Below are positions 4,338-57,412 of a DNA stretch of 64,000 bases, piece after piece. The stretch is from Burkholderiales bacterium (lineage in GTDB: Bacteria > Pseudomonadota > Gammaproteobacteria > Burkholderiales > Burkholderiaceae_C). Below the pieces are notes generated by a model. It searched no databases, was not told the origin of the DNA, and saw nothing but the letters and a program-made list of their open reading frames with translations. The stretch lies in the NCBI GenBank assembly GCA_016191525.1, contig JACPOK010000011.1, positions 1-64,000 on the forward strand, in the 5' to 3' direction. A program made the position numbers and the translations under genes. Within the stretch, counting starts at the first letter, position 1. Each line of letters opens with the position of its first letter.

Positions 4338-5060
4338 TTAACGGGCAGGATTGTCGGACAGGGCCAGCTTCAGGCCGAAACCAAGGAACATGAGGCCGGC
4401 GGCGCGCTCCAGCCAGAGAAATGGCGCCCCCACGTTCGGCGCTTCGTACCTCTCTGCCCCCCGAGGGGGCTCGGCCGCCTTGGGAGCGGCCCGGCGGCGG
4501 CCGGCCTCGCTGAATCGCGAGCCCAGCCAGGCCGCGGCCAGGCCCCAGCCGATGTTGACCCACAGGCCGTTGAAGTTGAACAGCAGCCCCAGCAGCAGGA
4601 AGGCCAGCGGCTTGTTCTGGATGGCGGGAGCGATGAACTGGGGCACGAAAGCCAGGAAGAACAGCGCCACCTTGGGGTTGAGCGCGTTGGTCCAGAACCC
4701 CTGGAAAAAGATGGCTTTTAGCCCTGCAGAGCGCGCCAGCTGTGCTCGGCCAGCTCCTAAATCAATAGCAGACGGCTTTTTCGACAGCAGCATGCGGATG
4801 CCCACGTACACCAGGTAGGCGGCGCCCGCCCACTTCAGCAGCGCGAACGCGGTGGCCGATGCGGCGAGCAGCGCGCTTACGCCCACGGCGGCCGCGAAGA
4901 TGTGGACGAAGCAGCCGGCCGTGATGCCAAACGCTGCGACCACGCCGGCACGGGCACCCGAACGCAAGCCATGCGTGACTATGTAGAGCACGTCCGGCCC
5001 GGGCGTGAGGTTCAGCAGCAGGCCGGCGGCGATGAACAGGAGCAGCTGGTCTATCGGCAT
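4338..5060 (-). CDS. LysE/RhtB family amino-acid exporter carrying two in-frame repeat insertions
   Basis: [41 protein letters not shown]; hydrophobic segments; repeat A and repeat B fall inside the ORF. Confidence 0.9.
4427..4497 (+). repeat. Interspersed repeat family B, copy 1 (inside lysE/rhtB)
   Basis: CCCCCACGTTCGGCGCTTCG...CTGCCCCCCGAGGGGGC...CTTGGGAGCGGCCCGGCG; shared with 6119-6180 and 13799-13863. Confidence 0.8.
4705..4769 (-). repeat. Interspersed repeat family A, copy 1 (inside lysE/rhtB, in frame)
   Basis: Reverse complement GCTATTGATTTAGGAGCTGGCCGAGCACAGCTGGCGCGCTCTGCAGGGCTAAAAGCCATCTTTTT. Confidence 0.85.
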
Positions 5061-6114: not shown

Positions 6115-6118
6115 GAAG

Positions 6119-6180
6119 CCCCCACGTTTGCCGCCAAGGCGGCTGCACTGCCCCCCGAGGGGGCGCTAGCTTGCTTGAAG
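6119..6180 (+). repeat. Interspersed repeat family B, copy 2 (fills trpG-ltaE intergenic gap)
   Basis: CCCCCACGTTTGCCGCCAAGGCGGCTGCACTGCCCCCCGAGGGGGCGCTAGCTTGCTTG. Confidence 0.75.
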
Positions 6181-6196
6181 CGGTTCTGCGCTGCGC

Positions 6197-19941: not shown

Positions 19942-20916
19942 ATGGGTGAATTCGACCTCATCAAACGCTACTTCAACCGCCCCGCGAAGCGCAGCCCGCT
20001 CGGGGTGGGCGACGACTGCGCGCTGCTGGCGCCGGCGCCCGGCATGCAGCTGGCCGTGTCCTGCGACATGCTGGTGGAAGGCCGCCACTTTTTATCCACG
20101 GTCGACCCGTTCCGTCTCGGCCACAAGGCATTGGCGGTGAACCTGAGCGACTTGGCCGCCTGCGGCGCGAAGCCGCTGGCCTTCACGCTGGCGCTGGCCC
20201 TGCCGCGTGTCGATGAAACCTGGCTGGATGGTTTTTCACGCGGCCTGTTCGCACTGGCCGAAGCGCATGGCTGTGATCTCGTGGGCGGCGACACCACGCA
20301 GGGCCCGCTGAACATCTGCATCACCGTGTTCGGCGAAGTGCCCGCCGGGCAGGCGTTGCTGCGCTCCGGTGCGAAGCCCGGCGACGACCTCTATGTCAGC
20401 GGCACGCCGGGTGATGCGCGCCTCGCGCTGGAAGTGTTTCGCGGCGGCCTCTCGCTGCCGGCCGATGTGTTCGAGCATGTGCGCGGCCGCATGGAGCAGC
20501 CCACGCCGCGCGTGGCGCTCGGCCAGGCGCTGCGCGGCATCGCCACCTCGGCAGTGGACGTCAGCGACGGGCTGCTCGGCGACCTGGGCCACATCCTGCG
20601 CCAGTCCGGCGCGGGGGTCCGCATCGACACGGCAATTGCTATGAACTTGATAGCGCCTCACGCACAGCTGGCGCGCGTTGCAGGCCATTTCTCCTCTGAA
20701 AAACAGCTCGAATTCGTGCTTGCGGGCGGGGATGACTACGAGCTGGTGTTCACCGCACCGCCCGCCTCACGGGCCGCGGTGCAGGCTGCGGCGCAAGGCA
20801 GCAGCACGGCCGTCACGCGCATCGGCGTGATCGAAGCCGAGCCCGGCGTGCGGCTGGTGGATGCCGCCGGGCAATTGCTGCATCGGCACTACGCCTCGTT
20901 CGACCACTTCGCTTGA
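19942..20916 (+). CDS. thiL: Thiamine-monophosphate kinase with in-frame repeat A insertion
   Basis: GEFDLIKRYF, GVGDDCALL, VSDGLLGDLGHI, GGDDYELVFT. Confidence 0.95.
   Translation: MGEFDLIKRYFNRPAKRSPLGVGDDCALLAPAPGMQLAVSCDMLVEGRHFLSTVDPFRLGHKALAVNLSDLAACGAKPLAFTLALALPRVDETWLDGFSRGLFALAEAHGCDLVGGDTTQGPLNICITVFGEVPAGQALLRSGAKPGDDLYVSGTPGDARLALEVFRGGLSLPADVFEHVRGRMEQPTPRVALGQALRGIATSAVDVSDGLLGDLGHILRQSGAGVRIDTAIAMNLIAPHAQLARVAGHFSSEKQLEFVLAGGDDYELVFTAPPASRAAVQAAAQGSSTAVTRIGVIEAEPGVRLVDAAGQLLHRHYASFDHFA
20638..20703 (+). repeat. Interspersed repeat family A, copy 2 (inside thiL, in frame)
   Basis: GCTATGAACTTGATAGCGCCTCACGCACAGCTGGCGCGCGTTGCAGGCCATTTCTCCTCTGAAA. Confidence 0.85.
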
Positions 20917-27868: not shown

Positions 27869-27932
27869 CTCCGCGCAGCGAATGTCCCCCGGCCCCGGGA
27901 GGGGGCCTCCTCCTTAATTTCGCTGCGCAGAG
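27869..27932. repeat. Hairpin element family C, copy 1
   Basis: Arms CTCCGCGCAGCGAA/TTCGCTGCGCAGAG around TGTCCCCCGGCCCCGGGAGGGGGCCTCCTCCTTAA. Confidence 0.85.
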
Positions 27933-28134: not shown

Positions 28135-28208
28135 GGCTGGCCGTCGCGGCGAAATCAAGGAGGAGGCGCCCTCCCGGCGCCGGGGGACATTCGCCGCGGC
28201 GGCCAGCC
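28135..28208. repeat. Hairpin element family C, copy 2 (opposite orientation)
   Basis: Reverse complement core GCGAATGTCCCCCGGCGCCGGGAGGGCGCCTCCTCCTTGATTTCGC; 19-nt arms GGCTGGCCGTCGCGGCGAA/TTCGCCGCGGCGGCCAGCC. Confidence 0.85.
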
Positions 28209-32386: not shown

Positions 32387-32800
32387 TTACACTCTCAATG
32401 CGGTGCGAATAGTCACACCGATGGCGGCCGCGCGCTTTTTCAGCGCCAGCACATCGCGGTCCTTGCTCAATAGCAGTGCATGGTGCGCCACCGCCAGGTC
32501 AATGAATTTCTGGTCGTCGGCGTCGGCACAGCTCATCCCAGCCTTGCCGGGCGCATCCACGATGGACGCATGTCGGTCGAAAGCTGTCATCACGGCCTCT
32601 TTGGTCAGGCCTCGGTCAGCCAGGCGCGGCGCGACCTTGGGGTAGGCGAGCACGCGCTCCAGCTCGCCGCGCATCGCGGCCGTGGCCAGCCAGCGCACCG
32701 TGCCCCCTTCCAGTGCATCGCGCAGGTGTTGCGCCGAATCGTCATTGAAGACCAGCAGGTCCAGGACGATGTTGGTGTCCAGGACGACGCCGGCGCTCAA
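32387..32800 (-). CDS. PIN-domain protein (putative TA-toxin-type), TTG start overlapping rlmL stop
   Basis: GVVLDTNIVLDLLVFND, ADADDQKFIDLAVAHHALLLSKDRDVLAL. Confidence 0.82.
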   Translation of the reverse strand: MSAGVVLDTNIVLDLLVFNDDSAQHLRDALEGGTVRWLATAAMRGELERVLAYPKVAPRLADRGLTKEAVMTAFDRHASIVDAPGKAGMSCADADDQKFIDLAVAHHALLLSKDRDVLALKKRAAAIGVTIRTALRV

Positions 32801-34011
32801 GCCTTCGCGTCCTTGCGCGCCGAGCCCCGGACCATGTCGAACTTGAACAGCCGGCATTCGATCGGGCCGTTCCACATGGGCACGCGGCGCGACTCCTTCA
32901 GCCGCATCCGCGAAGGCAGCTTCAGGTCGGGTGTCAGCACCCAGGCCGTCCAGCCGCTGTAGTTCTTCTTCCAGTGCGTGGCGAGCTGGCTGAAGAAGTC
33001 GCCGCCGTCCTCGGCCTGCGCGCTCTCGCGCGCTCCGAAGCGCCCCGGCCCGGCGACGCCGCCCGCCTCGATGCGCTCGCCGTAGGGCGGGTTCAGCAGC
33101 ATCACGCCCGGCGCTTCCGAGGGCGGCATGCGCTGCAGCGCGTCGCCGCCGCGGAACTGCACGGCCTGCGCCACGCCGGCGCGCTCGGCGTTGCGCTGCG
33201 CGAAATCCACCATCCGGTGCGCCACGTCACTGCCAAAAATGGCTGGAGAGCGCGCCAGCTGTGCTTGAGCCGCTTCATTTTTGATAGCAGACCAGACGTG
33301 GTCCTGGAACGGCAGCATCTTCTCGAAGGCAAAGCGGCGCAAGCTGCCGGGCGCGATGTTGCAGGCGATCTGCGCGGCTTCGATGGCGATGGTGCCGCTG
33401 CCGCAGCAGGGGTCGTACAGCGGCTGCTCACCGTCCCATCCGCTGGCGGCGATCATCGCGGCGGCCAGCGTTTCCTTCAGCGGCGCCTCGCCCTTGTCCT
33501 CGCGCCAGCCGCGCTTGAACAGCGGCTCGCCCGAGGTGTCGATGTACAGCGTGGCGTGGTCGGTGGTGAGGTGGGCGTAGAGGCGGATGTCGGGCCACTG
33601 GGTGTCGACGTCGGGCCGCACGCCGCTCTTGTGGCGGAACCGGTCGGCCACCGCGTCCTTGATCTTCAGCGCGGCGAAGTTCAGGCTGGTGAGCGGGCTG
33701 TGCTGCGCCGTCACCTCGATCTTGAAGGTCTGCTTCGTGGTGAACCAGATCTCCCAGGCCACGGCGGAGGCGGCCTCGTACAGGTCGTTCTCGTTGCGAT
33801 ACATCGTGTGCGACAGCTGCACCAGCACCCGCTGGGCGAGGCGGCTGTGCAGGTTCAGGCGCATCGCGTCGCGCCACGAGGCACGCGCCTGCACGCCGCC
33901 GCGGCCCACCAGCAGGTCATCGCCCGCCAGGCCGGTGAGGCGGTGCACCTCGTCGGCCAGGAAATCCTCGACGCCGGCGGCGCAGGGGAGGAAAAGTTGC
34001 AACGCGTTCAT
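32797..34011 (-). CDS. rlmL: THUMP-domain 23S rRNA (guanine-N2) methyltransferase, RlmL-type, with in-frame repeat A insertion
   Basis: LYDPCCGSGTIAIEAAQIA, MLLNPPYGERI. Confidence 0.9.
   Translation of the reverse strand: MNALQLFLPCAAGVEDFLADEVHRLTGLAGDDLLVGRGGVQARASWRDAMRLNLHSRLAQRVLVQLSHTMYRNENDLYEAASAVAWEIWFTTKQTFKIEVTAQHSPLTSLNFAALKIKDAVADRFRHKSGVRPDVDTQWPDIRLYAHLTTDHATLYIDTSGEPLFKRGWREDKGEAPLKETLAAAMIAASGWDGEQPLYDPCCGSGTIAIEAAQIACNIAPGSLRRFAFEKMLPFQDHVWSAIKNEAAQAQLARSPAIFGSDVAHRMVDFAQRNAERAGVAQAVQFRGGDALQRMPPSEAPGVMLLNPPYGERIEAGGVAGPGRFGARESAQAEDGGDFFSQLATHWKKNYSGWTAWVLTPDLKLPSRMRLKESRRVPMWNGPIECRLFKFDMVRGSARKDAKA
33234..33288 (-). repeat. Interspersed repeat family A, copy 3 (inside rlmL, in frame)
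   Basis: Reverse complement GCTATCAAAAATGAAGCGGCTCAAGCACAGCTGGCGCGCTCTCCAGCCATTTTTG. Confidence 0.85.
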
Positions 34012-34078
34012 CGTCCGATGTTATCGGCTTGGCCCGGCCGCCCGTGTCTTGTAGACTTTAGGTCACAGGGGACAAAGC

Positions 34079-41810: not shown

Positions 41811-42212
41811 ATGAACAAGCTTCTTTCCGTGCTCGCCCTGGGCCTGGCCCTGTCCACCGGCGGCGCGTTTGCCGCCAGCCATGCGGGCGCCCCGATGGCC
41901 GCCGACGCCAAGAAGCCCGCCGCGGCCGCCATGGGCGGCTGTGATGCCCAGGCCGCCGAGAAGAAGCTCGCCGGCGCCGCCAAGACCAGCTTCCTCAAGA
42001 AGTGCAATGCCGACGCCGGCCCGGCCACCTGCGATGCGCAGGCTGTCGACAAGAAGCTCGCCGGTGCCGCCAAGACCAGCTTCCTGAAGAAGTGCAATGC
42101 CGATGCGGGCCCGTCCGCCTGCGAAACCCAGGCCACCGAAAAGAAGCTGGCCGGCGCCGCCAAGACCAGCTTCATGAAGAAGTGCGACGCTGACGCGGCC
42201 GCCAAGAAGTAA
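41811..42212 (+). CDS. Secreted protein with three PsiF-like repeats
   Basis: Signal peptide; CDAQAAEKKLAGAAKTSFLKKCNADAGPAT repeated three times. Confidence 0.85.
   Translation: MNKLLSVLALGLALSTGGAFAASHAGAPMAADAKKPAAAAMGGCDAQAAEKKLAGAAKTSFLKKCNADAGPATCDAQAVDKKLAGAAKTSFLKKCNADAGPSACETQATEKKLAGAAKTSFMKKCDADAAAKK
41940..42209 (+). repeat. Three 90-bp tandem coding repeats
   Basis: Near-identical DNA units starting at about 41940, 42030 and 42120. Confidence 0.85.
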
Positions 42213-57336: not shown

Positions 57337-57349
57337 AACGCCGGCCGTT

Positions 57350-57412
57350 GCTACAAATTCAGTAGCTGCCTATGCACAGCTGGCGCGCCTCGCAGGCATT
57401 TTTTACCTCTGA
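57350..57412 (+). repeat. Interspersed repeat family A, copy 5 (contains gshB stop codon)
   Basis: GCTACAAATTCAGTAGCTGCCTATGCACAGCTGGCGCGCCTCGCAGGCATTTTTTACCTCTGA. Confidence 0.85.

Follow-up and report, generated by a model that had tools for sequence, protein, structure and literature searches.

Two dispersed repeats in frame within one LysE/RhtB-family exporter gene: insertion by the one, apparent in-place replacement by the other

How does a membrane protein of 240 residues come to carry, in frame and in two separate loops, copies of two different repeats that are dispersed through the rest of its genome, and did either of them lengthen the protein in which it now lies? The question is raised by an exporter gene in the window, the stretch of 64,000 nucleotides of DNA analysed here (Table 1), whose host would be, judging by matches to the same genus, a Ramlibacter-like member of the Comamonadaceae. 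The open reading frame runs without an internal stop, and a score of 106 bits for PF01810 against a cut-off of 25.6 assigns its product to the LysE/RhtB translocators by the Pfam profile. Against the curated cut-offs of NCBIfam the exporter scores lower on all counts (114 against 184 bits for TIGR00949, 102 against 165 for LeuE and 89 against 209 for the RhtB-type model), and its assignment as an equivalog of LeuE or RhtB was rejected on these scores. Its neighbours are ltaE and trpD, in a gene order that is preserved in relatives.

Table 1. Repeats and the exporter gene in the window, followed by the repeats of a second doubly occupied gene on contig C30 of the same genome.
Feature	Position	Strand	Evidence
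lysE/rhtB-family exporter gene, 240 aa	4338..5060	-	Pfam LysE 2e-30; TIGR00949/LeuE/RhtB relatives below curated cut-offs
Repeat A copy, 63 nt, 22-residue peptide, loop between helices 69-91 and 112-126 of exporter	4708..4770	-	R1 match, E 1.8e-13; AlphaFold2 loop
Repeat B copy, ~76 nt, 24-residue peptide, loop preceding last helix of exporter	4424..4499	-	R2 match, E 4.7e-7; AlphaFold2 loop
Intergenic repeat B, between trpG and ltaE	6116..6193	-	R2, E 8e-12
Short-variant repeat B, flanks non-coding by codon score	13797..13864	-	R2, E 6.7e-7
Repeat A copy in frame in thiL (gene 19942-20913 +)	20637..20699	+	R1, E 1.6e-22, copy part of model; thiL = TIGR01379
Repeat A copy in frame in rlmL-like methyltransferase gene (32800-34020 -)	33227..33289	-	R1, E 7e-19, copy part of model
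Repeat A copy, outside genes by codon score	53157..53219	+	R1
Repeat A copy at edge of a gene	57349..57412	+	R1 and codon score
Repeat A in FemAB-like gene	C30: 337861-337923		
Reverse repeat B in FemAB-like gene	C30: 337494-337571		

Covariance models were built for repeat A (R1) from 11 and for repeat B (R2) from 10 other copies, with the exporter copies excluded, and both nevertheless recovered their repeat in the gene, in agreement with a preliminary description of this DNA that had seen two distinct interspersed repeats in frame in a single lysE/rhtB gene. The peptides which that description had read from them are correct on translation, and its edges (4705-4769 for repeat A, 4427-4497 for repeat B) lie a few bases from those of the models. 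It had also placed both repeats in loops, with the reading frame and the helices preserved; the AlphaFold2 model of the exporter (mean pLDDT 83.5) bears this out, putting both in low-confidence coil between helices, repeat A in coil 92-111 (pLDDT 48 for residues 101-110) and repeat B in coil 192-210 (pLDDT 59 for residues 201-210). A PDB search found no relatives of the exporter, and an Rfam search of the locus gave no match better than chance.

Both elements are dispersed palindromic repeats that are frequent in the Comamonadaceae. In the host genome of 5.0 Mb and 68 per cent GC, the R1 search found at least 150 full-length 63-nt copies of repeat A and the R2 search 44 copies of repeat B of 68-79 nt, among them a tandem pair (C35:179108/179185); when single copies were folded as DNA, those of repeat A were no more stable than shuffles and those of repeat B weakly more stable. 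By a codon score on the flanks, a rough guide that called the short lysE tail after repeat B non-coding, 26 of the 102 copies of repeat A examined lie in frame within genes. All 19 forward copies share one frame, and all 7 reverse copies likewise share one, a uniformity whose chance, judged from the stop-free frames of the non-gene copies, is ~0.001 for each orientation; they yield the 22-residue peptide in forward reading and SEEKxxAERxxxAxAAIxxIA in reverse. Repeat A can thus be described as 21 codons with one frame per orientation, encoding a peptide that is plausible as an Ala/Gln-rich helix or linker. The exporter is one case of a pattern affecting dozens of other genes, housekeeping genes included; repeat A is found in thiL, rlmL, miaA, hscA, sucB, pepN, paaE and the genes for dihydrolipoyl dehydrogenase, an error-prone polymerase and a FemAB-like protein. 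Repeat B was also seen in frame in the gene for MurD, an essential cell-wall enzyme (L152:2-2347). That a single gene should carry both repeats had been called unusual, a judgement weakened by the share of in-frame copies of repeat A and by the FemAB-like gene of the same genome (G000 C30:336857-338239; L148, L189), which holds A and B as well, but upheld in so far as two such genes exceed the ~0.03 expected by a rough chance estimate (4 genes with B, ~38 with A, ~4700 genes).

It is in their effect on length that the two repeats differ. The preliminary description had taken both for independent insertions, a claim that unchanged loop lengths among orthologues were to count against, and at loop A the lengths are unchanged: the loop of the exporter is 39 aa long, as it is in most orthologues of the same genus that lack repeat A. 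For repeat B the claim holds, since the exporter has 240 aa, whereas all but one of its 29 same-genus orthologues have 213-225 aa and the exception (L239, identical in sequence to L020) itself carries repeat B. By these lengths repeat B is a true in-frame insertion that added ~24 aa to the exporter. Across 25 in-gene sites of repeat A, the length change against same-genus relatives, taken as the site mean and read off the comparisons by hand, is +2.5 aa at the median, with quartiles of 0 and 5.5, and not +21. In rlmL, the segment that holds repeat A in the window is 39 aa long, a length shared by 29 of 29 same-genus relatives, in all of which the repeat is undetectable at this site, and identity is ~0.46 within the 63 nt against ~0.8 outside. 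The length of hscA exactly equals that of relatives without repeat A, and miaA, pepN and rlmL set against solved structures of distant relatives give the same picture, with no gain of 21 aa. At lysE, too, repeat A would on this evidence occupy the loop in place and not lengthen it. Insertion is nevertheless within its means: reverse repeat A lengthens ltaE cleanly by 21 aa in L039 and L023, and one site in the host genome is longer by 18 aa (L097). It is a possibility that repeat A in general lands where homology guides it; rlmL argues for this, its native window standing in about the top 1 per cent of windows for similarity to the repeat A profile (median rank 0.011), and lysE does not, its native loop being no more like repeat A than other windows of the gene (rank 0.29).

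We therefore favour, with a probability of about 0.62, a reading in which repeat B was inserted whereas repeat A replaced its loop in register, its core being homogenised within the genome. The same lengths would also result if repeat A were an ordinary old insertion of 63 nt, after which native loop residues were deleted until the former length was restored. The clean insertions in ltaE and the +18 of L097 fit such a history, and repeat A in lysE is old, occurring across Rhodoferax, Polaromonas and Ramlibacter, which leaves time for compensation; the loops of many relatives are, moreover, rich in indels, so that equal length may be a later adjustment. Intermediate lengths are, however, nearly absent among the 25 sites, and the exact equality of rlmL and hscA with relatives lacking repeat A also tells against it, for which reasons we consider gradual restoration unlikely, if still deserving of serious weight.

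Repeat B occupies the same lysE loop in eight orthologues of the first search (L017, L018, L020, L021, L022, L028, L042, L065), and L044 bears an apparent scar of it. When the tree is computed from the sequence outside the loops, nine changes are needed to account for the nine carriers, a single clade for all nine is rejected (AU p 2e-101) and the frame of the repeat differs among carriers (L022 versus L020). As the carriers form no clade and their frames partly differ, insertion at this loop appears to have arisen several times; because three of them (L018, L028, L065) have near-identical inserts, the events would number at least four to five and not nine. These near-identical inserts, together with the similar 3' ends of L022 and L042, members of one clade, are what could be expected had repeat B entered the loop once and then spread by descent or gene transfer, with losses. 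Such a single entry is improbable given the tree and the frames, and the loops without repeat B read as an unscarred AVQRGMHWLDR, apart from the apparent scar in L044. With regard to the traits of a MITE, namely terminal inverted repeats and a target-site duplication, repeat B has internal hairpins, and at lysE no clear duplication was seen. In the favoured reading, then, repeat B would have inserted into a loop tolerant of changes in length, one that appears to have been hit several times independently in relatives.

Two further explanations carry very little weight. Repeats are common assembly breakpoints, and an assembly error or a decaying exporter gene might be suspected, but both repeats are contig-internal, the same loops are filled in many relatives, and the reading frame, synteny and conserved residues of the exporter are all intact, making this very improbable. 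Slighter still is the chance that Ala-rich native helices mimic the repeat by coincidence or convergence, no element being present in the gene, for although the native rlmL peptide does resemble that of the repeat, E values reach 1e-13 even when the copy is left out of the model, and long identical cores with AT-rich codons stand in a genome of 68 per cent GC.

Other loops at the locus are filled in a similar manner. In relatives, the ltaE loop after residue ~175-190 holds repeat B in frame at ten loci, two copies of it in L086, reverse repeat A at three (two by model, L023 by eye) and at one locus a third, unrelated repeat with the palindrome GTTCGTACTGAGC...GCTCAGTACGAAC; across lineages this loop has thus been entered, in frame, by three repeat families that are unrelated to one another (L023, L031-L033, L035, L038-L040, L046, L048, L054, L063, L070, L086). 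Loop A of lysE in L266 and L267, of the same genus as the exporter, holds a GTAG-headed REP-like palindrome in place of repeat A. The presence of different repeat families in the loops of lysE and ltaE suggests that loops tolerant of change are struck repeatedly. Elsewhere in the window, three tandem 90-nt units, 80-84 per cent identical, lie in apparent coding sequence (41919-42196), and a 54-nt inverted repeat (27874-27927 and 28145-28198; 91 per cent complementary, 217 nt spacing, CCCCCGG blocks) was missed by the models of repeats A and B.

The copies of repeat A also bear on how such loops change once occupied. A sister genome, G067, shares many of the in-gene sites of repeat A, and in 11 orthologous sites the ends of the element match by site (positions 1-18, permutation p 0.00035; positions 47-63, p 0.00005), a sign that the orthologous copies are related by descent. 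The core (positions 26-46) shows no such match, with 0.54 versus 0.52 when sites are mismatched (p 0.21), and at 11 of 11 sites the core in the host genome is nearer to its own intergenic copies than to the G067 orthologue (p 0.001), an effect whose size is biased upward because the sites were chosen by likeness to the host's own core, a choice that inflates similarity within the genome and leaves the site-matched ends free of bias. Likewise, at 18 further loci from Comamonadaceae, the core in lysE is more similar to the intergenic copy near ltaE in the same genome than to those of other genomes (p 0.0008). The reciprocal comparison starting from G067 offered 5 clear in-gene copies among the best 30, too few for a test. 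The simplest reading is that the core is kept uniform per genome, in and outside genes, through gene conversion or repeated overwriting by the current subtype, and the core of repeat A in the exporter would accordingly change together with ~150 sister copies.

How this might come about can be sketched. Within genes, repeat A would mostly displace native sequence of much the same length, in register, as could happen if gene conversion or template switching, guided by homology or microhomology, copied its core into and among sites; the same process of exchange could account for replacement and homogenisation alike, and selection would retain those copies whose peptide suits the loop and remove those that break the protein. 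Broadened to the Comamonadaceae, the proposal is that a 63-bp family overwrites coding sequence of about its own length and thereafter undergoes concerted evolution, the loops of dozens of unrelated proteins being rewritten together in each lineage, which we advance tentatively and at somewhat short of even odds. Replacement and concerted rewriting of loops, by a mechanism that we infer, appear to be new; our search, outside which most subscription journals lay, turned up no paper in which repeats of this kind are described as replacing sequence, or as evolving in concert, within the protein genes of bacteria.

Coding repeats of such a kind are known mainly from Rickettsia, which is AT-rich, and its relatives, and here they are met in a GC-rich betaproteobacterium, in genes such as thiL, rlmL, miaA, hscA, sucB and murD. 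Should homogenisation extend across genic and extragenic copies, the loops of unrelated proteins would not be independent in evolution, contrary to what alignments, trees and co-variation methods assume. Repeat-bearing loops also mark permissive sites protein by protein, of use for tagging and structural work.

Among known elements, REPs, which are mostly extragenic, share with repeats A and B a small size, a palindromic form and dispersal. The genome has a single Y1_Tnp (RAYT-like) gene (L237, G000 C8:211337-211630), conceivable as a mobiliser, within 1.5 kb of which there is no repeat A, repeat B or GTAG motif; the GTAG head is absent from the start of both consensus sequences, and a link to REP/RAYT was rejected on these grounds. 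No mobilising enzyme for either repeat was found. The head of repeat A (ATAGCT) and the AAAA-type tail that it has in relatives fit the motif ATAGCT(N)22CAAAAG of Polaromonas naphthalenivorans, left unexplained by a 2017 motif scan that counted 125 copies, 18 of them in genes (PMC5217627, Table 7), and reported it without analysis of coding, replacement or concerted evolution. Repeat B is probably BRE (Hot et al. 2011), matched on described traits and not on sequence: in PMC3110155, BREs are Betaproteobacterial elements of 75-91 bp, high in GC, sometimes tandem and with some copies inside coding sequence, to which the 68-79 nt, high GC, tandem pairs and wholly coding copies of repeat B in Comamonadaceae correspond. 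For Polaromonas JS666, 29 BREs are reported there and our model search found 16 copies of repeat B, a tandem pair included. Unlike BREs as described there, repeat B recurs at one loop. The closest known phenomenon to the repeats in the exporter is that of the RPEs of Rickettsia (Ogata et al. 2000, 2002), presented in PMC10969869 as insertions of ~150 bp, in frame in many genes. Like them, repeat A is short, dispersed and in frame in many unrelated genes, housekeeping genes among them, with a recurrent peptide, a likeness by description; unlike them, it is 63 bp long, inhabits a betaproteobacterium of 68 per cent GC and not an alphaproteobacterium, mostly adds little or no length and has a core that evolves in concert. 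The RPE habit of adding its own length, as that account gives it, is not shared by repeat A, whose 25 sites gain so little, and is shown by repeat B in lysE.
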